A DNA stretch of 64,000 bases from Clostridium massiliamazoniense (GTDB lineage Bacteria; Bacillota; Clostridia; Clostridiales; Clostridiaceae), in NCBI RefSeq assembly GCF_001403635.1, contig NZ_LN879466.1, positions 62,001 through 126,000 of the forward strand, given 5' to 3'. Both the position numbers and the translations under genes were made by a program. The number at the start of each line of letters is the position of its first letter. Within the stretch, counting starts at the first letter, position 1. Shown here piece after piece: positions 8,492-36,734 of this stretch. The notes beneath the pieces are model-generated. The model was not told the DNA's origin. It did not search any database and saw nothing but the letters and a program-made list of their open reading frames with translations.

Positions 8492-11400
8492 ATGGTGAAA
8501 AAGAAAATAACTGCAGTTTTAGCTACTACTATGATGGTAAGTCAATTAAGTCCAATAGCTGTTTATGCAAAGGATATATCTTCTAAGGAAAATGAAGAAG
8601 CTAAAGTTAGTTTAGATAATAACGAGGTTAAAAATAAAGAAGAGAATAAAATTGAGAATAATAAAAGTGAAGAGGAAGATAAAACCGAGGATGAGAAGAT
8701 AGAAGAAGTTCCTGAGGATGAGGATAAAAAGGAAGAAGAGGATTCTGAAAGCAACGAAAATTCTGATGAAAGTTCAGTTACTGAGCCTTATAAGCTTAAA
8801 GGAAGTTTAGAACTTGATATGAATTTTAGTACACCAATAAAGTATAAATCTAGTGAAGACACTAAGATAGATATTCTTATTAAAAATGATAAAGGTTTTG
8901 AGGGGACCATAAGTCTTGGAAGTAATAAAAGTTCAGGAACTATTGATGAAGGCATTGAGTATAACTTAAGAGCTTTAAATGGAAAGAAAAAACCTATTAA
9001 TGGAGAAGAGGAGCTTTCTTTTTATCATCTAAGTATTAATAATTTAGAGCTTGGTAATTATACAGTAGAAATATCAGGTGTGGGGTATGCTAAGGCTGTT
9101 ATTCCTAATATTGAAATACAAAATACTTCAAAAAGAGTTATCTTTGGAACAAGTGATAAGACTGTATTAATGGATAATGAAGGGAAAGAAAATCATAGTG
9201 CTATAAAGGAAGAATATAAGGGGGTATTTCTTTCTGGAGATATTAATGGTGATGGAGCTGTAAATAAGGTAGATTATGACCTTATGAAGGCTGAAATCAA
9301 AAAAGATGATGGAGGGAAAAACTTAGATTTTGACTTAAATAGAGACCAAAAAGTTGATATTACAGATTTATCTTATATTCATACAAACTTAGATAAATCT
9401 TTAGGAAGTGCAGTCATAGTAGATACAAATCCAATAATAAATCCTGATAATGTAAGCATAGATGTTGATACAACAAACATTAATGTTAAAGGAGAAATAA
9501 AGAATATATTAAAGGATAACGGAAGTACTGTAAAATTAGAAACTACGAACAATGCTCCAATAAGTGAAGAGAATCCTATAGCTATTCCTATAAATCTAGG
9601 AAAAACTAGAATGGGAACAACAAAAATGGAAACTGTGATTATAAAGGCACCGGGGGAGAATGCACCATCAAAGGGAAAAGTAGTAATTCCTAAAGGAAAT
9701 GAAGATGGTTCAGATTTAATAGTTGATTTTAATGAAAGTAATACAAAAAAGATATCACAAAAAACAGCAAATGGAGAAGCTCTTGAGGCAATAACTATTG
9801 ACCTTGGAAAACAGGTTGCTGTAAGTGAAGTAACTATAAAGGTTACAGGAGGAAGAGGGAATAAAAACTTAGCAGAAATAGCAAGTGTAGAATTTATAAA
9901 TAATGTTTATAAAGAACTTCCACAACCTAAAATGAATATTCCAGTTATAAATAATTACACAAGTGCAACAGCTGTAGGAAATGAGTTTATGCAATTTAAG
10001 TGGGAACATCAACCTAATGTAACAGCCTATGAACTTAAAGTTGAAAAGCTTAATGATAAAGGAGAAGTTGTTTCAACTAGAAAATATAAGACATCAGAAA
10101 ATTTTTTAAGAATAGAAGGTGACGTGGCGGGTTATGAAATTTATAGAGTGAGTGTTCAATCTTTAAGTGGTGATGAGTGGTCAAGTGGATATAAAGATAA
10201 TCAACAAGGGTATGATGCTTCAAAAGTAGGAAGTACAAACCTTGAAAATAACAGTAATGATAAAGATGGAAAGCCAGATAATGTAGATGAAAATTATAAA
10301 CCACAAGAATGGAATTCTGAAACAGGTAATTTAGAAAGTGGTGCTAGTCAAAATGGAATGTATGGTTCAGATTCAATAATAGAGCTTCAACTTGTACCAG
10401 AAACAGCCCCAGAGGGACCAGAAGGTATAAAGGCAGAAGGGCTTTATAAAGGATTAAAAGTAAATTGGAAAGCACATAAAAAGGCTAAGGATTATGATCT
10501 TTATTATAGAAAGGTTGGAGAAGGAGCATGGACAAAAGCTAATGATCCTAATGAACCTAAGTATGTTGATAGTAATATTGAAAATGATATACCAGATGGA
10601 GTTATAAATTTAAAGCCAAATGAGAAGGAAGACAAGGAGGAACTTATAAGAAATACTTCATATATAATAAAAGGTCTTGATGATGATCAAACTTATGAGT
10701 TAAAGATGACAGCAACAAATCATCATGGAACAGGTGGACTTTCACAAACCTATCTTGGAAGAACTGAGAATCTTATAGGGCCAGAAATGCCCAAATATAA
10801 GCTTATAAATACACCAAAAGTAACATTTGAAAAAGGGGAATCACCTGTTAATGGAATAGTTGATATAGAATATTCTAATTATAGTGTAGCAGATCATCCA
10901 AATGGAATTGAAGATAAATTTGTTATTGTAGATGGTGATTATTCAACATATTGGACATCATTTACATGGAATACATCATATACAAGTTCACCAAAGATTA
11001 CCTTTGATAAAGAGTATGAAATGGATACTTTTATGATAGCAACAAGACTTGATGCAGGATATGGTGGAAATGCTTATGATTATGTTCCTGTTAGATACTT
11101 TGATAGTGAGAAAAATGAATATGTAAATGTAAATGGGCAATATAGTATTCAAAATAGTAATGGAAAAAGATACTATAAAGTAACTTTGGATGAACCTATT
11201 AAAACTAAAGAGTTAAATGTAGCCTTAAGAATACATCCAATGTATGAACCTTTATCAAGTATTAGTGAAATTAAATTTTATAACTATGATAGCTTAGAAA
11301 AAGATGTCGAAGCATTATTTAAAGATGAATTAATGTTAGAGCTTGCAGATGGAGTAACACAAGAAAAGGTAGACTCTCTGAGAGTAAGAGCTAATACAAT

Positions 11401-14400
11401 AGATAGTGCTTCAATGGAATATCATCCAAATAGAAAATTAATCTTAGAGAATATAGAAAGAGCACAGGATATTTTAGATGATATAAACTTAGATCAAAAT
11501 ATTAAAGTACTTAATCCAATGATAATTAATTCAGGTAATACTATAGGACAAAGTAATAACTGGCAGGCTTTAGGTGTTTCAGCTAAGCCGGGGGATAAAG
11601 TTAATGTTTATATAGGTTCAACAAATCCTAATACTAAATTTGAACTTGCAATAACGCAATATTATGCGGAGAGTGGAACAGCTGTAAAGACTTATGATAT
11701 GGAGTTGGTTCCAGGGAAGAATGAAATAACAATTCCAGAATCAGCTTTTCAAATGGATTATGAAAAAGGTGGAAATTTATTCATAAGATTTAAATCAAAT
11801 TATAGGGAAAATGATGTAGTTAAGGTTAGAACAAGTGGAACAACTAAAATACCACATCTTAATTTAAATAAACTTATAAGTGATGAAAGCAAAGAGAAGG
11901 AAAGCAAGGCAATCATAAGAGAATATATAAAAGAGCTTAAAAGTCACGTTTCTAATCTTCCTAAAATGTATCCAAGTAAAGAGGACAAGGAAAATAATAT
12001 TTATACCTATGACCCAATGACATCAATACTTAATAGTACAGAAATTGAGGGAGATAGAATAACTTTATCACTTGCAGCAAATCAAGTTTTAAATGGAATA
12101 ACTTCAGGACTTTCTAGTGAAGATGAACAGGTTGAAAGAGTTTATAAAACTCTTCTTGCTTGGGAACAAATAATGAAAGTTTCTTATTCACAGCAAGGAT
12201 TAATAGAAGCACCAATAGATTTTGACGGGGATGGAGAAATAACAGATAAGGCTTTAGAAACACTTAATGGAAAGAGTGAAAGAGCATTTTATAATCAAAA
12301 TAAGGTTCCACAAAATCGTATTAATATTAAGTATCAAAGAATGTTTACTGGGGCATTTATGTATGCTTCAGGACATCATGTTGGAATAGGTTATGGTTCA
12401 GTACCTTCAATGATGATGGGAGTTCCTTTTAAGGTTAACAGTAATGGTGAACTTATAGATAAAGAAGATGGCTCATTATTTGGATGGGGGATTGGACACG
12501 AGATAGGACATGTTCATGATAGACCAGGATTGACAAAGGCAGAGGTAACAAATAATATACTTCCACTTATAACACAAACATTCAATGATGTTAATGAGTC
12601 AAGATTAGAGGAAGGTACTTACAAGAATACTTATGATAAGGTAACATCCGGTTCTATAGGTGGACCAAGTGGAAGTACAGCACTTGCTATGTATTGGCAA
12701 TTACATCTTGCGTACGATAATAACTACACTTATGAAATGCTTAAATTAAATTCAGATGCAGATATAAATAATGATACCATTTACGCTAAAATTTATAGAG
12801 CAGCTAGAGAAAATGGAGTAGCACAAAATGAAAGTGGCTATAATCAATTTAAACAAAGCTGGATTATGAGAGCATCAGATGCAGCAGGAAAAGATTTAAG
12901 ACCATTTTTCCTAGCTTGGGGAATAGAAGCAAGTCCAAAGACAAATGAATATTTATCTTCAAAGAAATATCCTGTTGAAGAAAAGAAAATACAATATTTA
13001 AATGATTCTGCTAGAAGAAAAAGACTTGCTGCAATAAATTCTAATAATATGGGATTTATTCAAATGGCTAAGGATACAAAGGTTGTGGCTTCTTTTGGAA
13101 CAAGTAAAGATAATTTAGAGGTTCAAAACAATTCTTATTTAAATCAAAAAAATGTTCCATTAAAGCTTTCAGTTAATAAAGATACTGATAAAATTTTAGG
13201 TTATGAAATTATAAGGCAAGAATCAACATCAAATGGAATTAAGGAAGCTGTAGTAGGCTTTGTTGAAAGAGACAAAGAAAGTGTTGATGGAATAACTAAT
13301 TATTCAGATTTAATAGATGGGATGAATAATAAGGTATTCACATATAAAATAAAAGCCTATGACTATGATTTAAATGTAACTAATGAAGTTACTGTTGGTA
13401 CGGTTAAAATTAGACATGATGGAAGTATATCTAAAAATACTTGGAGCTTTGAGAGTAATACTATTGGAGCAAATGATGAGGTTACAGATGATAGTGGTCA
13501 TGGTCAAAGTAATACATCAATAAAAAATATAGCTGATAATGATGTTAATACTGTTTATAGTGCGAAAAGAGGAACTGATAATAACGGAAATATCCAAAAA
13601 GGAGATTTATATATAACTGTTGATCTTGGAAATTCAAGACAAGTAACAGGACTTAAATATAATCCAGGAATTCAACCTAAAAAAAGTCTTTTAAAGAAAT
13701 TATTTGGAAATAAAAAAGAAGAATATGTACCAATCAATAATTATGAAGTTCTTATAAGTAATGATAATAAAACTTGGACAAAGGTCCATTCAGGGAAATT
13801 TGATAGTACAAAAGAAAATACTATTTATTTTAATAAGGCAGGTAATTCATCTAATAGTGAACTTTGGGCAAATAATGCACAGTATATAAAATTAGTTGCA
13901 AAAGGTGTTGACACTATGTCCATTGCAGAATTAGATGTAATTGGACAACCTGGAGATAACATAGAAATTGGACTTTCTTTTGATAAGGTAAATTACAAAA
14001 ATGGATTAGGTAAATTAAGTGCTGATTATGAATATGCCGAAGGTAAGGTAATTCCAAAAGGTTCAATAATAGTAAATGGTGAATATAAGGGAGATCCTGC
14101 TTTTAATATTCCTTTAGTATTAAATGAAAATGATGAAAACTTTGCAATTGAATCTCAAGCAATACTGCTTGCAGAAGTTCCAGAGGGAGCTGAGCTTGGA
14201 GAAGTTACAAGTGGTACTTGGATTTATTGGATAACACCAGAGCAACAAGAAAAGTTTATAAATGCAGAAGCCAATATGGTTGGAAAGAAAATAAAGGCTG
14301 AACTTTATAGATTTAATAGTTTAGATTCAAATAATAAACCTGTAGGTCAAAGATTAGTAAGTGATACTTTCTATTTAGACCTTCCTGAGAATCTAGATAC

Positions 14401-14506
14401 TTTACCAGAAATAAGCTTGAATGGTGGACAAGCTAAAAATAAAAATAAGTCAGTAATAAATATAGATTCAAAACTTATGAATAGTGTTGTAGAAGCAAGG
14501 AAGTAA
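8492..14506 (+). CDS. Secreted M60-family zinc metalloprotease (enhancin-like) with dockerin and carbohydrate-binding modules
   Basis: A 2004-residue exported protein. Residues 1-26 are a signal peptide (cut after VYA), then an acidic Glu/Lys/Ser stretch to about 95. A type I dockerin covers about 244-305, with calcium loops GDINGDGAVNKVD and DLNRDQKVD. Fibronectin III-like and discoidin/F5-8C (CBM32-like) modules follow. The catalytic domain carries HEIGH at 1336-1340 and a glutamate at 1369, fitting the M60 motif HEXXH-X(8,28)-E. A further Fn3-like and F5-8C module lie near 1500-1815. M60 enzymes cut O-glycosylated proteins such as mucins; C. perfringens Zmp proteins are the closest relatives known to me. 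There is no wall-anchor motif, so display probably depends on the dockerin. The next gene is a plausible anchor. Confidence 0.92.
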   Translation: MVKKKITAVLATTMMVSQLSPIAVYAKDISSKENEEAKVSLDNNEVKNKEENKIENNKSEEEDKTEDEKIEEVPEDEDKKEEEDSESNENSDESSVTEPYKLKGSLELDMNFSTPIKYKSSEDTKIDILIKNDKGFEGTISLGSNKSSGTIDEGIEYNLRALNGKKKPINGEEELSFYHLSINNLELGNYTVEISGVGYAKAVIPNIEIQNTSKRVIFGTSDKTVLMDNEGKENHSAIKEEYKGVFLSGDINGDGAVNKVDYDLMKAEIKKDDGGKNLDFDLNRDQKVDITDLSYIHTNLDKSLGSAVIVDTNPIINPDNVSIDVDTTNINVKGEIKNILKDNGSTVKLETTNNAPISEENPIAIPINLGKTRMGTTKMETVIIKAPGENAPSKGKVVIPKGNEDGSDLIVDFNESNTKKISQKTANGEALEAITIDLGKQVAVSEVTIKVTGGRGNKNLAEIASVEFINNVYKELPQPKMNIPVINNYTSATAVGNEFMQFKWEHQPNVTAYELKVEKLNDKGEVVSTRKYKTSENFLRIEGDVAGYEIYRVSVQSLSGDEWSSGYKDNQQGYDASKVGSTNLENNSNDKDGKPDNVDENYKPQEWNSETGNLESGASQNGMYGSDSIIELQLVPETAPEGPEGIKAEGLYKGLKVNWKAHKKAKDYDLYYRKVGEGAWTKANDPNEPKYVDSNIENDIPDGVINLKPNEKEDKEELIRNTSYIIKGLDDDQTYELKMTATNHHGTGGLSQTYLGRTENLIGPEMPKYKLINTPKVTFEKGESPVNGIVDIEYSNYSVADHPNGIEDKFVIVDGDYSTYWTSFTWNTSYTSSPKITFDKEYEMDTFMIATRLDAGYGGNAYDYVPVRYFDSEKNEYVNVNGQYSIQNSNGKRYYKVTLDEPIKTKELNVALRIHPMYEPLSSISEIKFYNYDSLEKDVEALFKDELMLELADGVTQEKVDSLRVRANTIDSASMEYHPNRKLILENIERAQDILDDINLDQNIKVLNPMIINSGNTIGQSNNWQALGVSAKPGDKVNVYIGSTNPNTKFELAITQYYAESGTAVKTYDMELVPGKNEITIPESAFQMDYEKGGNLFIRFKSNYRENDVVKVRTSGTTKIPHLNLNKLISDESKEKESKAIIREYIKELKSHVSNLPKMYPSKEDKENNIYTYDPMTSILNSTEIEGDRITLSLAANQVLNGITSGLSSEDEQVERVYKTLLAWEQIMKVSYSQQGLIEAPIDFDGDGEITDKALETLNGKSERAFYNQNKVPQNRINIKYQRMFTGAFMYASGHHVGIGYGSVPSMMMGVPFKVNSNGELIDKEDGSLFGWGIGHEIGHVHDRPGLTKAEVTNNILPLITQTFNDVNESRLEEGTYKNTYDKVTSGSIGGPSGSTALAMYWQLHLAYDNNYTYEMLKLNSDADINNDTIYAKIYRAARENGVAQNESGYNQFKQSWIMRASDAAGKDLRPFFLAWGIEASPKTNEYLSSKKYPVEEKKIQYLNDSARRKRLAAINSNNMGFIQMAKDTKVVASFGTSKDNLEVQNNSYLNQKNVPLKLSVNKDTDKILGYEIIRQESTSNGIKEAVVGFVERDKESVDGITNYSDLIDGMNNKVFTYKIKAYDYDLNVTNEVTVGTVKIRHDGSISKNTWSFESNTIGANDEVTDDSGHGQSNTSIKNIADNDVNTVYSAKRGTDNNGNIQKGDLYITVDLGNSRQVTGLKYNPGIQPKKSLLKKLFGNKKEEYVPINNYEVLISNDNKTWTKVHSGKFDSTKENTIYFNKAGNSSNSELWANNAQYIKLVAKGVDTMSIAELDVIGQPGDNIEIGLSFDKVNYKNGLGKLSADYEYAEGKVIPKGSIIVNGEYKGDPAFNIPLVLNENDENFAIESQAILLAEVPEGAELGEVTSGTWIYWITPEQQEKFINAEANMVGKKIKAELYRFNSLDSNNKPVGQRLVSDTFYLDLPENLDTLPEISLNGGQAKNKNKSVINIDSKLMNSVVEARK

Positions 14507-14572
14507 TTAGAAAAGTTCTAGTATCACAAAGAATGTTTTAAGCTATGGTTTATTTAGAAAGGGGAATTATTA

Positions 14573-16648
14573 ATGAAAAACACAACTAAAGGTGCAATTG
14601 CTGCAGGTCTTATTGTAACATCAGCATCTATAATATCTTATGCCAATACAGGGGCTTCTAAGAAAAGTAATAGTGATGAAAAGAATAATACGAAATTAGT
14701 TTTAGATGTAAAAAAAGTAGATAGTGATACAGTAAAAGTTTCAATAGATAATATAACTGAAGTTCCAAAGGCACTTCAGTTTAGCATAAAGTTAGAAGGA
14801 AATGTAACGTTAAAAGAAGATGAGAGTAGTATAAGAGACTTAATTAATGAAACTATTTCTAATAGAAAAAGTGCATATGCCACTACTAATACTGTTTTGA
14901 CAGATTACTCTTATAATAGTGCAACTAAAGAAATTGATGTTTTAATAACAGCTACAGATTCTTTGCCAAAGACAGGAAATAAGATTGATATATTTGAGAT
15001 GGATATTAAGCCTACAAAAGCTAAAAAAAGTGGAGCAACAAAATATAAGGTTATTCCTGCTGATGTGAAGGATTTTAAATATGTAAGTAATACTAATAAA
15101 GAATACAGTAATTTAGGAGTTTCTTATGAGGAAAAAGAAATAACAATGAATGAGAGACCAAAAATAGAAAGCACTAAGTCTGCTATAAAGATTATAGAGG
15201 GTGAAACACTAGCTTTAACAGAAGCAACTTTAGGTATTACTATGAGCGATAAGGATGGAGAAACCCCTAAATTAGAAGTTAGACAGCCTTCAAAGGGAGA
15301 TGCTGTAATAACAGAATTTAAGGAAGATTTACCTGGAATTTATGAACTTGAAGCTGTAGCAGTAGATAGCTATGGAGAAAAATCAGAAGCAGTTAAGATA
15401 CAAGTGGCTGTAGAGCTAGATAATACAATAAAGACACCACCAACAATTCTTATCAATGGAAAAGAATTAATTGATATTAAATTAAATGCTGGGGATATAT
15501 TTGAACCATTAAAGGATATAAAAGCAACAGATGTTAAGGGAAGAGATGTAAAAGTAGAGTTAACAGCAGATAAGACAATAAACTTAGATCCAGATGTAGA
15601 TACAATATATACATTAACTTATACAGCGACAGATATTTATGGAAATAAAGCAGTAAAGGCAATAAAGTTAACAGTAATAGCTAATAAAGCACCAATTATA
15701 AATGGCGTTAAGAATCATGTTATAACTGTTGGTGATGTTTTTGATCCAATGAAGGGGATTACAGTAACTGATGAAGATAAAAATTTAAAAGTAGAAGTAG
15801 AAAGTAATTTAAATATAAATATACCAGGTATTTATAAAATTAAATATAAAGTTACTGATACAAAAGGAAAGACTACAAGAGCAGAATCTACAGTAACAGT
15901 AAATCCTAAATTAGGAGTAGTAAATAGTGCGCCAGTAATAATAGCAAATGATAGAACTGTTAAAGTTGGAGATAAGTTTAATCCTCTACAGGGGATAAAA
16001 GCTACAGATAAAGAAGATGGAGAGATTAAGGTTGAACTTGTGGAAAGTACAGTTCCAGTAGATAAAAATGGAATTGTAATAAAGGATGGTAAGTTTACAG
16101 TATCATTAAAAGCTACGGATAAAGAAGGGATAGTTACAACAAAAACAATAATAATAACTGTTGAGAAAAAAGAAATTGATACACCAGAAAATCCAGGAGA
16201 AGTAATTAAGCCAGAAAATCCTACACCAGATAAGCCAGAAGATCCAAATAAACCAGAAAAACCTGAAAATAAACCAGGAGATTCAAATGAATCAGGAAAA
16301 CCTGAAGAGGAAAAACCAGAGGGAGGAAATTCAGGAGATACAACTAATCAAGAGAAACCTGTTGAGGGGAATCAAACTAATCCAGGAAATGATGAAAATA
16401 AAAAACCAGGAGATTCAAATAATTTAGATAAAGTTGAAGAGGGAACTCAAGAAAATCAAAGTAATCAAGGAAATACAGAATCAGGAAAAAAAGAAGAGGG
16501 AACAAAACCTGAAAATGTTGAAGGTGAAAAACAAGAAAGTAAGAAAGAAAAATTGCCTAAAACAGGTGATAAAGGTTTATTAGGAGTTATAGGTACAGGC
16601 TTAGCTGCTATAGGTGGATTATTTATAATAAATAAAAGAAAAAAATAG
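14573..16648 (+). CDS. LPXTG wall-anchored surface protein with possible cohesin-like head and Ig-like repeats
   Basis: A 691-residue surface protein 66 bases after the M60 gene, same strand. It has an N-terminal signal peptide (cut near SYA), then a beta-rich domain of about 160 residues (33-200), opening with strands LVLDVKKV and VKVSIDNI. This fits a cohesin-like fold, but that assignment is my inference. Three or four Ig-like domains follow (about 200-535), each with an AP(V/I)I...VGD.F(D/N)P pattern. A Pro/Glu/Asn-rich wall-spanning linker leads to LPKTGD, a hydrophobic helix and a basic tail: a sortase A signal. Pairing with a dockerin-bearing enzyme encoded next door suggests a scaffold that tethers the protease to the wall. 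Confidence 0.88.
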   Translation: MKNTTKGAIAAGLIVTSASIISYANTGASKKSNSDEKNNTKLVLDVKKVDSDTVKVSIDNITEVPKALQFSIKLEGNVTLKEDESSIRDLINETISNRKSAYATTNTVLTDYSYNSATKEIDVLITATDSLPKTGNKIDIFEMDIKPTKAKKSGATKYKVIPADVKDFKYVSNTNKEYSNLGVSYEEKEITMNERPKIESTKSAIKIIEGETLALTEATLGITMSDKDGETPKLEVRQPSKGDAVITEFKEDLPGIYELEAVAVDSYGEKSEAVKIQVAVELDNTIKTPPTILINGKELIDIKLNAGDIFEPLKDIKATDVKGRDVKVELTADKTINLDPDVDTIYTLTYTATDIYGNKAVKAIKLTVIANKAPIINGVKNHVITVGDVFDPMKGITVTDEDKNLKVEVESNLNINIPGIYKIKYKVTDTKGKTTRAESTVTVNPKLGVVNSAPVIIANDRTVKVGDKFNPLQGIKATDKEDGEIKVELVESTVPVDKNGIVIKDGKFTVSLKATDKEGIVTTKTIIITVEKKEIDTPENPGEVIKPENPTPDKPEDPNKPEKPENKPGDSNESGKPEEEKPEGGNSGDTTNQEKPVEGNQTNPGNDENKKPGDSNNLDKVEEGTQENQSNQGNTESGKKEEGTKPENVEGEKQESKKEKLPKTGDKGLLGVIGTGLAAIGGLFIINKRKK

Positions 16649-16733: not shown

Positions 16734-16762
16734 AAAAAAAGAGCATTTAAGCTCTTTTTTTT
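16734..16762 (+). terminator. Rho-independent terminator
   Basis: AAAAAAAGAGC and GCTCTTTTTTTT form the stem over ATTTAA. It ends the surface-protein transcript. Confidence 0.85.
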
Positions 16763-20744: not shown

Positions 20745-22460
20745 TTAATATAAGAAGTATCTTTGTGCCATAGGTAATTCTGAAACAGCCTTACTTGTTA
20801 CTACTTCACCATCTACTTTTACTACATAAGTTTTATGATCTATTGTAACTTTAGGTGTAGCAGTATTTAATTTCATATCATCCTTAGTTAAATTTCTTAT
20901 TCCTTTAACAGGTAATACATTTCTTTGTAAGTTTAATTCTTGTTTTATTCCATTTTCATAAGCTGCTTGTGATACAAAAGTTATACAGTTTTCATTAACT
21001 GCATTTCCATAAGCACCCCACATTTTTCTTAGCATAATTGGACCAGCTGTTGGAATAGAAGCATTCGCATCTCCCATTTTTGAATATGCTATATGACCAC
21101 TTTTAATAACTAGTTTAGGTTTAACACCAAAATAAGCAGGTTTCCAAAGAACTAAATCAGCATATTTTCCTACCTCAATAGAACCAACATATTCTGAAAT
21201 ACCATGAGTTATAGCAGGGTTTATTGTATATTTAGCAATGTATCTTTTGATTCTGTTGTTATCACTGTATTCAGAATCTCCAGCTAATGGACCTCTTTCA
21301 GTTTTCATTTTACTAGCAATTTGCCAAGTTCTTGTTGTAACTTCTCCGATTCTTCCCATAGCTTGAGCATCAGAACTCATCATACTTATAGCACCTAAGT
21401 CATGTAAAATATCTTCAGCAGCAATAGTTTCTTTTCTTATTCTTGATTCAGCAAAAGCTACATCTTCCTCAACTTTTGGATCTAAGTGGTGACAAACCAT
21501 TAACATATCTAAGTGTTCTGGAACAGTATTTAAAGTATAAGGATTTGTTGGAGTTGTTGATGATGGTAATATGTTTTTGTTAGATACCATTGTCATTACA
21601 TCTGGAGCATGCCCTCCACCGGCACCTTCAATGTGATAAGCGTGAATTGTTCTGCCATTTATTGTTTCTAAAGTATTTTCAACGAATCCACATTCATTTA
21701 ATGTATCAGTATGTATTGTTACTTGAACATCATATTGATCACCAGCTTCTAAGGCATAATTTATAGCTGACTTTGTGCTACCCCAGTCCTCATGAACTTT
21801 AAGACCTAAAGCACCAGCTTCTATTTGTTCAGCATTAACTCTAGGGTTAGAACCGCTTCCCTTACCTTGGAACCCAATATTTATAGGCATACCTTCAACT
21901 GCTTTTAACATACGCTGGATATTCCATTTACCAGGAGTACAGTTAACAGCATTTGAACCATTAGCAGGACCTGTTCCACCACCAATTAGAGTAGTAGTAC
22001 CTCCACCAAGAGCAGTTTCTACTATTTCAGGACTTATAAAGTGAACGTGTGTATCTACACCACCAGCTGTAAGAATAAGACCTTCACCAGAAATTGCTTC
22101 AGTACTAACACCAACTATGAAATCTACTTTATCCATTCCATGAGGGTTACCTCCTTTTCCTATTGCAGCAATTTTACCATTTTTTATTCCTATATCTGCT
22201 TTATATATACCAGTATAGTCTATAACAATAACTCCAGTTATAATTAGGTCTACTACAGCTAGATTATCTCTTGTTTCAGTAGAATTTTGCCCCATTCCAT
22301 CTCTTAGAGATTTTCCACCACCAAAGATACATTCATCTCCATATTGAGTAAAATCGTTTTCTATTTGAGCAAATAGTTCAGTATCTGCAAGTCTAATACT
22401 ATCTCCTGTTGTTGGTCCGAATAATTTTGAATAATCTTTTCTATTCATTTTGAAACTCAT
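20745..22460 (-). CDS. ureC: Urease alpha (catalytic) subunit
   Basis: A 571-residue full-length urease alpha subunit, which hydrolyses urea to ammonia and carbamate at a di-nickel centre. Nickel and catalytic residues are in place: HVHF, the carbamylated lysine in [28 protein letters not shown], the flap VCHHLDP and the nickel Asp in [16 protein letters not shown] precedes the ATG. It is last in a ureA-ureB-ureC operon. The sequence appears functional, but no nickel-insertion gene (ureD, E, F or G) lies downstream or anywhere in the window. Confidence 0.97.
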
Positions 22461-22488
22461 AAGTTACACCTCCATAATTAATTTTTCA

Positions 22489-22794
22489 TTAAAGATTTCC
22501 ATCAATGGAATTTTTAAGTCCATAAACTTTTCTTTGACCACCAATATCAATTAATTCAATAGTTTTCTCTTGATTAGCTTCAAATCTAACAGATGTTCCA
22601 CCTGGAATATCTAATCTTTTTCCATAGGCTTTTTGTCTATCAAATTCTAAAATAGAATTTGTTTCATAGAAGTGGTAGTGTGAGCCTACTTGAATAGGTC
22701 TGTCTCCAGTATTTTTTACTTTTATTTTTACTGATTCTTTTCCAGCATTACAAAGTATTTCATCTGATTTTAGAATGTATTCTCCTGGTCTCAT
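22489..22794 (-). CDS. ureB: Urease beta subunit
   Basis: A 101-residue structural subunit with the family start MRPGEYIL, the GDRPIQVGSHYHFYETN motif and RLDIPGGTSVRFE. It packs against alpha and gamma in the urease trimer. AAGGAGGA precedes the ATG, and short gaps to ureA (17 bp) and ureC (28 bp) show one transcript. Confidence 0.96.
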   Translation of the reverse strand: MRPGEYILKSDEILCNAGKESVKIKVKNTGDRPIQVGSHYHFYETNSILEFDRQKAYGKRLDIPGGTSVRFEANQEKTIELIDIGGQRKVYGLKNSIDGNL

Positions 22795-22811
22795 GATTAC
22801 GTCCTCCTTAA

Positions 22812-23114
22812 TTATTGTATTGGATTATGAACTGATATAAGTTTAGTTCCATCTGGGAAAGTTGCTTCTATTTGAATATTAGGAATCATATCAGCAACAC
22901 CATCCATTACATCATTTTTACTTAATATAGTTTGACCATAGGTCATTAAGTATTCTACAGTTTTACCATCTCTAGCTCTTTCAAGCAACTCTTCTGAGAT
23001 TATGGCTACAGCTTCAGGAGCATTAAGTTTTAAACCTCTATCTTTTCTTTTTCTAGCTACATCAGCAGCAACAGAGACAAGTAGTTTTTCTCTTTCTCTC
23101 ATTGTTAAGTTCAT
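22812..23114 (-). CDS. ureA: Urease gamma subunit
   Basis: A 100-residue protein with [39 protein letters not shown] and the C-terminal [14 protein letters not shown], all standard for urease gamma. It is the first gene of the minus-strand operon, with AAAAGGAGGA before its ATG. Confidence 0.96.
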
Positions 23115-31754: not shown

Positions 31755-32666
31755 ATGAATGATATAATAGATGAAATTTTAAAAAATCATACTTTAATTA
31801 GAGAAAGAAATACGGGGATAACCAGACCTATAGTTTATGATATGGGTGATGGAATAGATATTTATATTAAACAGAACTATAACAATATAGTGCTTTGGGC
31901 CTTTGACAATAAAGAAGATAAATTTATAGATATAGAAAATTCAATATTTAATAAATTAATAAGTGAACTAAGAAAGATAGCTATAAATATTACAGTTGAT
32001 GCTTTTGTTTATTATGTGGAGTTAGATTTAAATAAAATAAAGATAAGCACACAGGACGAGTTGAGCTTAGATAGAAAAAGTAAAAGAAAAATAATAGGAT
32101 ACTGTAGAAATGGTGGTCTTGGATATTTAGAAGAAAATTTGATTGAATTTCAGGAAAAGGTTATTTTAAATGAATATAGGGATGCCATAATATATAGAGA
32201 AAATTTTACAGGTAGGGTGTTAGACAGACCAGTAATAAATGAAGTTTTAAAAGACCTAGAGCCAGGAGATATTTTAGTTATAACAAAGTTGGATAGATTA
32301 GTACTTAATGTTAAGGATGGTATAACTATTTTAGATAAGTTATTCAATAGAAATATAATAGTACATGTGCTTAATGTAGGAATATTAGAGAATAGTAGAA
32401 TGGGAAGATTCTTTATACAAACAATGTTAGCAACGGTTGAAATGGAAAGTACTATGTTAAGAGAAAAAATAAAGGCTGGAAAAATAGTAGCAAAACAAAA
32501 ACCAGACTTTAAAGAAGGAAGACCAAAATTATTTACAGAAGAAGAGATAGAAACGGCCTTAAGTATGTTATTAGTTAATGGTGGGAAATTTAGTTATGAT
32601 AAGGTAGCAGAAATAACTAAAATAAGTAAAAGTACACTTATAAGAGAAAATAAAAAAAGAAAATAG
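31755..32666 (+). CDS. Serine-recombinase (resolvase)-like protein lacking the catalytic serine
   Basis: A 303-residue protein. Residues 1-110 are an extension of unknown fold. From about 112 it follows the resolvase domain: RPVINEVLKDLEPGDILVIT, KLDRLVLN, a GRFFIQTMLATVEMES helix, then GRPKLFTEEEI and a C-terminal helix-turn-helix (YDKVAEITKISKSTLIREN). The N-terminal motif, normally Tyr-X-Arg-Val-Ser, reads Tyr116-Cys-Arg-Asn-Gly120, so the nucleophile is missing, and KLDRLVLN lacks the usual Gly-Arg. It may act as a DNA-binding regulator rather than a recombinase. GTAGGAGA precedes the ATG. The reading frame is intact, which suggests selection. Confidence 0.8.
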   Translation: MNDIIDEILKNHTLIRERNTGITRPIVYDMGDGIDIYIKQNYNNIVLWAFDNKEDKFIDIENSIFNKLISELRKIAINITVDAFVYYVELDLNKIKISTQDELSLDRKSKRKIIGYCRNGGLGYLEENLIEFQEKVILNEYRDAIIYRENFTGRVLDRPVINEVLKDLEPGDILVITKLDRLVLNVKDGITILDKLFNRNIIVHVLNVGILENSRMGRFFIQTMLATVEMESTMLREKIKAGKIVAKQKPDFKEGRPKLFTEEEIETALSMLLVNGGKFSYDKVAEITKISKSTLIRENKKRK

Positions 32667-35255: not shown

Positions 35256-35301
35256 ATGTGTGATAAAATAAGAGTGATAAATATTTAACGGGGGGATGAA
35301 A

Positions 35302-36084
35302 ATGAAAATAAGAAAAATTTTAGCTAGCTTAATAGTAGTTTTAATAATTGCTTCTGGTCTTTATTTCTTTTTTTATAGAAGTAAAACAGTAAGTAATCAA
35401 AAGGAAAAAGTTACTATAAGTGCAGCATCATCTTTGTATGAACCATTAAACAAAATAATAGAGCTCTATGAAAGTAATAATCCAAATATTAAGGTAGATG
35501 TGAATTATGCATCATCATCAACCTTAGAAAGTCAAATTGAAAATGGAGCACCTGTAGATATTTTTATATCTGCAACACCTAAGTATACTAATGAGTTAAT
35601 TAACAAGAATATAATTTCTAAAAATAATGTTAGTAATTTTTTAGGGAATAAGCTTATTTTAGCGAGTTCAGGGACAAATAATGAAAATATTAAGAGTATT
35701 GAAGATTTAAAAAATACCACAGGTAAAATAGCTTTAGGAGATAAAGCAGTTCCGGTAGGACTTTATGGAACTGAAGCTTTAAAAAATTTAGGAGTTTTAA
35801 ATAGTATTTCAAATAGGATAGTATATTGTAAGGATGCTATGTCTATACTTAACTATTTAGAAAAAGGTGAAGTAAACTATGGTGTTATTTATGAAAATGA
35901 ATTAGTTGGAGCAAAAAATGTTAAAAAGGTAGCAGATTTCCCTAGTGATTCTTATAGTAAAATAGTGTATACTATAGCAAATTTAAATGATAAAGAAAAA
36001 ACTACGAAGCTAAAAGAATTTTTACAAGGAAATCAAGCAAAAGATGTATTTAAATCCTATGGATTTGAGGTTGATTTAAAATGA
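35302..36084 (+). CDS. modA: Molybdate ABC transporter, substrate-binding protein
   Basis: A 260-residue periplasmic-type binding protein held by an N-terminal hydrophobic segment; no lipobox cysteine is seen. ModA features include ISAASSLYEPLNKI (oxyanion-binding serines), ENGAPVDIFISAT and DKAVPVGLYGTEAL. It captures molybdate, needed for the nitrate reductase encoded further on. ATG 35302 is preferred because a run of six G bases lies 6 bases upstream, while the ATG at 35296 abuts it. It overlaps modB by 4 bases. Confidence 0.9.
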   Translation: MKIRKILASLIVVLIIASGLYFFFYRSKTVSNQKEKVTISAASSLYEPLNKIIELYESNNPNIKVDVNYASSSTLESQIENGAPVDIFISATPKYTNELINKNIISKNNVSNFLGNKLILASSGTNNENIKSIEDLKNTTGKIALGDKAVPVGLYGTEALKNLGVLNSISNRIVYCKDAMSILNYLEKGEVNYGVIYENELVGAKNVKKVADFPSDSYSKIVYTIANLNDKEKTTKLKEFLQGNQAKDVFKSYGFEVDLK

Positions 36085-36734
36085 TATTAGAGGCTCTTAT
36101 AGTATCATTAAAAGTTGCTATTCCAGCAACTATATTAGTAACTATTGTTGGAGTAATGCTAGGGAGATTACTACGTGGTAAAAGTAATTGGCTAAGTAAA
36201 TTAATAGAAACCTTAATAATGTTACCATTATTTATGCCACCATCACTAATAGGATATGTCATAATAGTAGCTTTAGGAAAGAAAAGCCTCATAGGTGGAT
36301 TTTTATATAATAATTTAGGGTTTTCATTAATATTCACAGTGTATGGTGCTATATTAGCTACATTTGTGGTAGCATTACCAATAATATATGGAACAGTTAA
36401 ATCAGCATTGGCTTCTGTTGATATAGCTTATGAAGAAGCAGCAATGGATTTAGGGGCAACAAAAGCTCAGGCTTTTTACAAAGTAGTACTTCCAATGTGT
36501 TATAAGCAAATAACAGGTGGAGTGATTTTAAGTTTTGCAAGAGCCTTTGGAGAATTCGGAGCTACCATGATGGTAGCAGGAAATATACCAGGTAAAACTC
36601 AAACCATACCCTTAGCATTGTATTATTCTTTTGAATATGGGGACAATACAAAGACCTCAATGCTTGCATTAGTAGTATTAATAATAAGTACAACACTTAT
36701 TTTTATATATAATAAAGTTATTAAAAATAAGTAG
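36081..36734 (+). CDS. modB: Molybdate ABC transporter permease
   Basis: A 217-residue permease with five to six membrane helices and the EAA loop YEEAAMDLGATKAQAFYKVV that contacts the ATPase. FGEFGATMMVAGNIPGKTQT is typical of ModB/CysW. Translation is coupled to modA by an ATGA overlap. No ModC ATPase gene follows; a terminator does. Confidence 0.92.
   Translation: MILEALIVSLKVAIPATILVTIVGVMLGRLLRGKSNWLSKLIETLIMLPLFMPPSLIGYVIIVALGKKSLIGGFLYNNLGFSLIFTVYGAILATFVVALPIIYGTVKSALASVDIAYEEAAMDLGATKAQAFYKVVLPMCYKQITGGVILSFARAFGEFGATMMVAGNIPGKTQTIPLALYYSFEYGDNTKTSMLALVVLIISTTLIFIYNKVIKNK

Follow-up and report, generated by a model that had tools for sequence, protein, structure and literature searches.

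Organization of the locus

In a 64,000-nucleotide window of Clostridium massiliamazoniense contig NZ_LN879466.1 (positions 62,001 to 126,000), to which all coordinates below refer, two neighbouring genes encode a dockerin-bearing M60 metallopeptidase (gene 1) and a protein with an LPXTG sorting signal (gene 2) (Table 1). One marker, named asrC by eye, has its best match in C. jeddahtimonense (82% identity), pointing to a probable Clostridium host. Our analysis supports the N-terminal head of the gene 2 protein as a divergent cohesin, and the two genes very probably supply a protease together with a second protein that anchors it to the wall, the two predicted to be joined by cohesin/X-dockerin binding.

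The gene 1 protein matches Peptidase_M60 in Pfam (E = 1.4e-22), and its HEIGH sequence has the HEXXH form of the family, followed by a glutamate, E1351, that is a candidate third zinc ligand. Its sequence matches in the PDB are 7jfs (1.5e-30), 5kdn, 7js4 ("F5/8 type C domain protein") and the glycopeptidases ZmpC and ZmpA, the likeness to the latter two lying in the catalytic domain. We take ZmpB to be a further M60 glycopeptidase and C. perfringens to be the Zmp species. Mucin is the predicted substrate, through cleavage of O-glycosylated protein. A low-complexity acidic stretch lies ahead of the X-module, and a Pfam match to fn3 is weak (23.8 bits, below the cut-off of 25). The C-terminal domain (amino acids (aa) 1823-1975, window 13958-14416) is well conserved in the M60 alignment and has no Pfam match. 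The protein contains no LPXTG and ends in SVVEARK.

The gene 2 protein runs from a signal through a 157-aa beta-rich head, Ig-like repeats and a linker to the sorting signal. Bact_surface_Ig-like matches three stretches (6e-19), and Gram_pos_anchor scores 22.2 bits against a cut-off of 20, over the LPXTG, hydrophobic and basic segments of a sortase-anchored protein. The first-pass annotation had described the pair as an M60 enzyme with a dockerin and no wall anchor beside an LPXTG protein with Ig-like spacers, and both descriptions stand. A second LPKTG occurs inside the head (window 14963-14977); it is absent at that position from the other 21 heads of a 22-row alignment and is probably a coincidence. 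No terminator-like site was found in the 66-bp gap between the genes.

Table 1. Features of the two-gene locus, in window coordinates
Feature	Coordinates	Strand	Basis
Gene 1, secreted M60 metallopeptidase, 2004 aa, without wall-anchor signal	8492..14506	+	open reading frame (ORF) list, Pfam, PDB sequence matches
Signal peptide, aa 1-26	8492..8569	+	read by eye from sequence
X-module, aa 99-223	8786..9160	+	own profile; C-terminal half aligns with X-module-dockerin (XDoc) chains; weak CarboxypepD_reg matches
Dockerin, two calcium loops, aa 243-307	9218..9412	+	Pfam PF00404
F5/8 type C domain, CBM32-like, aa 809-917	10916..11242	+	Pfam
M60 catalytic domain, aa 1301-1477	12392..12922	+	Pfam
HEIGH zinc motif, aa 1336-1340	12497..12511	+	sequence and M60 alignment
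Second F5/8-like domain, aa 1704-1782	13601..13837	+	Pfam
66-bp gap with ribosome-binding-site-like AAAGGGG	14507..14572	+	sequence scan
Gene 2, wall-anchored docking protein (docking predicted), 691 aa	14573..16648	+	ORF list, Pfam
Cohesin-fold head, aa 36-192	14678..15148	+	model fold, profiles, sister head in genome G131
Ig-like spacer region, aa 195-535 (limits by eye)	15155..16177	+	PF16403, three stretches, best aa 376-443
E/K/P/N-rich linker	16178..16531	+	sequence
LPXTG sorting signal: LPKTG, hydrophobic stretch, basic tail	16532..16645	+	Pfam PF00746, TIGR01167
Terminator-like hairpin 3' of gene 2	16734..16761	+	hairpin scan

A probable X-dockerin dyad in the peptidase

Pfam Dockerin_1 matches gene 1 at aa 249-300 (9e-6, 26.2 bits against a cut-off of 22.9) and all 22 of the 22 dyads compared. 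Both F-hand calcium loops of the gene 1 dockerin are present and retain residues at the calcium positions (DINGDGAVNKVD and DLNRDQKVDITD), presumably the usual ones. Because an X-module-like region precedes the dockerin, docking probably relies on an X-dockerin dyad; the first-pass annotation had seen a type I dockerin, which the Dockerin_1 match bears out, and had missed the X-module before it. When X-module and dockerin are combined in one profile, XDoc chains from cellulosomal scaffoldins are among its matches (4wi0, 5.9e-7; 4u3s, 9.4e-7; 2b59, 3.5e-5), in an alignment that spans the C-terminal half of the X-module and then both calcium loops. Since plain dockerins score equally or better (2yik, 2.6e-7), the dockerin supplies most of this score, and the X-module profile alone found no cellulosomal PDB chain. 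X-modules are described as resembling an Ig-like module of carboxypeptidase D, and XDoc dyads as docking scaffoldins onto surface cohesins, in the excerpted text of PMC5141474. Weak CarboxypepD_reg matches occur in 11 of the 22 dyads. A single-sequence model of the X-dockerin (predicted local distance difference test (pLDDT) 40.5) was too poor for a structure search. By sequence, the gene 1 dyad appears to resemble a cellulosomal XDoc.

A probable divergent cohesin in the wall protein

The head of gene 2 was modelled from its single sequence at low confidence (pLDDT 57), and the model has the nine-strand jelly roll of cohesins. Cohesin entries filled ranks 1-33 of a Foldseek search with it and ranks 1-38 after structural re-alignment of the matches, among them the C. 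perfringens cohesins 2jh2, 2vo8 and 2w1n. The first-pass annotation had inferred a cohesin and had set this fold check beforehand, with an unrelated fold as the outcome that would count against it; the fold returned was that of cohesins, and profile comparison and co-occurrence with the X-module support the same assignment. With hhalign, none of 1000 shuffles did as well as the 16-row head alignment against a cohesin profile; the 22-row alignment scored slightly lower (27.3) and still above all of 300 shuffles (maximum 25.4).

By itself, the gene 2 head gave no cohesin homology in the hhalign comparison, the heads matched neither of two other cohesin sets, and the tie of the G142 head to cohesins proved weaker than first judged, which slightly lowers our confidence. 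Neither gene 2 nor its relatives' heads reached the cut-off of Pfam PF00963, which is diagnostic of cohesins and not their definition. Pfam and NCBIfam reported no cohesin in the whole gene 2 protein or in 16 heads, nor did Pfam in five further scaffolds, and PDB sequence searches with head profiles and the G131 head found none. Homology to known cohesins is remote and seen at family level only, through the hhalign profiles and the G131 sister head. The head is best supported as a divergent cohesin whose dockerin binding is predicted, and the heads define a cohesin-like subfamily missed by the Pfam and NCBIfam models used.

The gene 2 protein might instead be an independent adhesin whose head binds a ligand of host or glycan origin, the two genes sharing no more than their expression. 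We consider this improbable, given the run of cohesins through rank 38 of the structural matches and the distribution and size of the protein in other species, described next.

Pairing and distribution in relatives

Head and X-module were searched for separately in the family to which G001 belongs (genomes are cited by handles of this form), represented by 206 genomes. The head was present in 19 of them, in 20 copies, and the X-module in the same 19, also in 20 copies, with one additional partial match in G003 (E 7e-4); a class-level sample of 391 genomes yielded one additional head, in G513. Leaving the window aside, the M60 gene is directly followed by the head gene in 20 loci of 19 genomes, a recurrence that makes the pair more than chance, and we rejected the idea of chance neighbours on this ground. 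In G035 both genes are present, at the ends of two contigs. Five heads found later by sequence (G131, G142, G169, G185 and G513) all lie beside an M60 gene with an X-dockerin, which is an independent check on the pairing. Conversely, ten other M60-like sites, spread over nine genomes, were among neither the X-module nor the head matches. That the head shares its genomes with the X-module and is missing at M60 paralogues lacking it also argues against the independent adhesin.

A relaxed head search of the 206 genomes (E up to 5) returned the heads, one decayed head (G042) and weak matches, five places of which were inspected and looked unrelated. The head was not found in plasmids, in viral contigs or, by exact 8-residue patterns, in genome contigs. 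In G042 (L258 6414-7411) the M60 and head genes are both reduced to adjoining fragments and have decayed together. In G043 (L161) the M60 gene is split into two ORFs of 1273 and 320 aa beside an intact head gene; in the M60 alignment the first ORF lacks the HEIGH region and the C-terminal domain.

The anchor varies more than the head. Among 22 gene-2 proteins, 11 end in LPXTG, two have CWB2 domains instead (G169 and G513), seven show by eye a terminal hydrophobic stretch and basic tail without LPXTG, and the remaining two were assigned to no anchor class. Lengths range from 270 to 953 aa, and in five species the protein (270-333 aa) comprises barely more than head, linker and tail, a further point against an adhesin. 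The parts that stay constant are the head and some anchor, as fits a docking protein.

One client or several

Two other arrangements bear on how exclusive the pairing is. The M60 dockerin could bind a different cohesin encoded elsewhere in the genome, with the head binding another protein. To look for such partners, 20 genomes were scanned with the Dockerin_1 model of Pfam and with A6, a broad profile built from 25 cohesins; at least one other cohesin occurs in 13 of them (profile A6) and a dockerin match outside M60 in 11, G031 being a multi-dockerin genome with 14 matches. In seven genomes whose completeness is not stated (G007, G024, G035, G040, G056, G169 and G513), however, the M60 dockerin is the sole dockerin match and no other cohesin was detected by these profiles, so that we regard such a swap of partners as very improbable. 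Dockerins are confined to M60 proteins in nine of the 20 genomes, including G016 and G025, which have one other cohesin each. Besides the one-to-one pair, G131 and G142 have genes for scaffoldins with several cohesins and for additional dockerin proteins, and two docking systems may therefore coexist in them.

Alternatively, several enzymes could dock onto the head, forming a small mucinolysome in which M60 is possibly one client; this overlaps with the dedicated anchor that we favour. The anchoring scaffoldin cSca5 of the Limousia mucinolysome has the same layout, and the models described in the excerpted text of PMC12997984 give it many dockerin partners. Against this stand the 21 orthologues examined, all with a single clear head (G185 adds a weak second match, E 0.09), the genomes with a lone dockerin, and the restriction of the X-module to this M60 protein in the 206 genomes, barring the marginal match in G003. 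A dock for several enzymes is unlikely, if a little less so than the adhesin. One head per scaffold, matched one to one by the X-module, looks less like a scaffold for many enzymes than like an anchor dedicated to a single protease. The "cellulosome-like" device of the first-pass annotation was thus too strong a term, and the several-cohesin scaffoldin that marks a cellulosome or mucinolysome is not seen in these orthologues. The pair is better described as a one-cohesin, one-dockerin protease dock, apparently with one client, which would do what a cellulosome does in its anchoring step without being a cellulosome itself.

Proposed mechanism

In the dedicated anchor that we propose, one transcription unit would make both the protease and its wall anchor. 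Sortase would fix the gene 2 protein to peptidoglycan at LPKTG, with Ig-like spacers and linker holding the head away from the wall, and the X-dockerin of gene 1, kept in shape by calcium, would plug into this cohesin. In this way the mucin-type M60 peptidase and the F5/8 domains it carries, which are of glycan-binding type, would be displayed on the cell surface with no anchor of their own. We also lean, with more reserve, towards a broader view in which a new, Pfam-invisible cohesin subfamily has evolved to serve a single protease as its private socket on the wall. The X-dockerin/cohesin lock would then be orthogonal and one-to-one, and would stay unchanged while its anchor is moved among sortase, CWB2 and membrane attachment.

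Other genes in the window

By eye, ureA, ureB and ureC-like genes lie at 20745-23114 on the reverse strand, and no ureD/E/F/G-like ORF was seen beside them in the list of ORFs of at least 90 aa. A serine-recombinase-like ORF with an N-terminal extension was recognised by eye at 31755-32666 (+); what we take to be the usual position of the catalytic serine has the sequence GYCRNGG, and for this reason the product may lack activity. Genes for a molybdate-type binding protein and permease (35296-36734, +, by eye) have no adjoining ATPase gene.

Comparison with known systems and implications

Among the closest likenesses is that to Limousia, a mucin-degrading gut bacterium with dockerin-bearing peptidases, whose cSca5 joins an N-terminal cohesin to a C-terminal LPXTG as gene 2 probably does; cSca5 is modelled to gather multi-cohesin scaffoldins and many glycoside hydrolases, and "M60" does not appear in the text (PMC12997984). 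The Clostridium pair, in contrast, comprises one cohesin and one protease in neighbouring genes, with the X-dockerin on the enzyme. In C. thermocellum and A. cellulolyticus an X-module and dockerin attach to a type-II cell-surface cohesin, a predicted likeness reflected in the XDoc profile match, whereas the XDoc described there belongs to the scaffoldin (C-terminal in CipB) and here lies near the N-terminus of the enzyme (PMC5141474, in excerpt). The X82 cohesin-dockerin enzyme complexes of C. perfringens share single cohesins, pairwise docking and enzymes for animal glycans, but their cohesins are described as sitting on glycoside hydrolases and not on an enzyme-free, wall-anchored protein (PMC12997984, in excerpt). 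A 2012 survey of M60 proteins, in the part available, counted a dockerin in 2 of 415 and drew the Clostridium proteins with no anchoring feature, marking them "?-anchor" (PMC3267712). Pairing of an M60 protease with a cohesin anchor was not described in the titles and abstract openings of open-licence PMC articles, among the matches listed.

The predicted binding would give one group of Clostridium M60 peptidases a concrete way to be attached, and suggests that cohesin-dockerin docking is used as a plain anchor outside multi-enzyme scaffolds. Genomes with the lone pair are clean systems for studying specificity, and the pair may serve as an orthogonal display tag. If the proposal is right, a non-covalent, calcium-held anchor would allow the mucinase to be shed when calcium falls.
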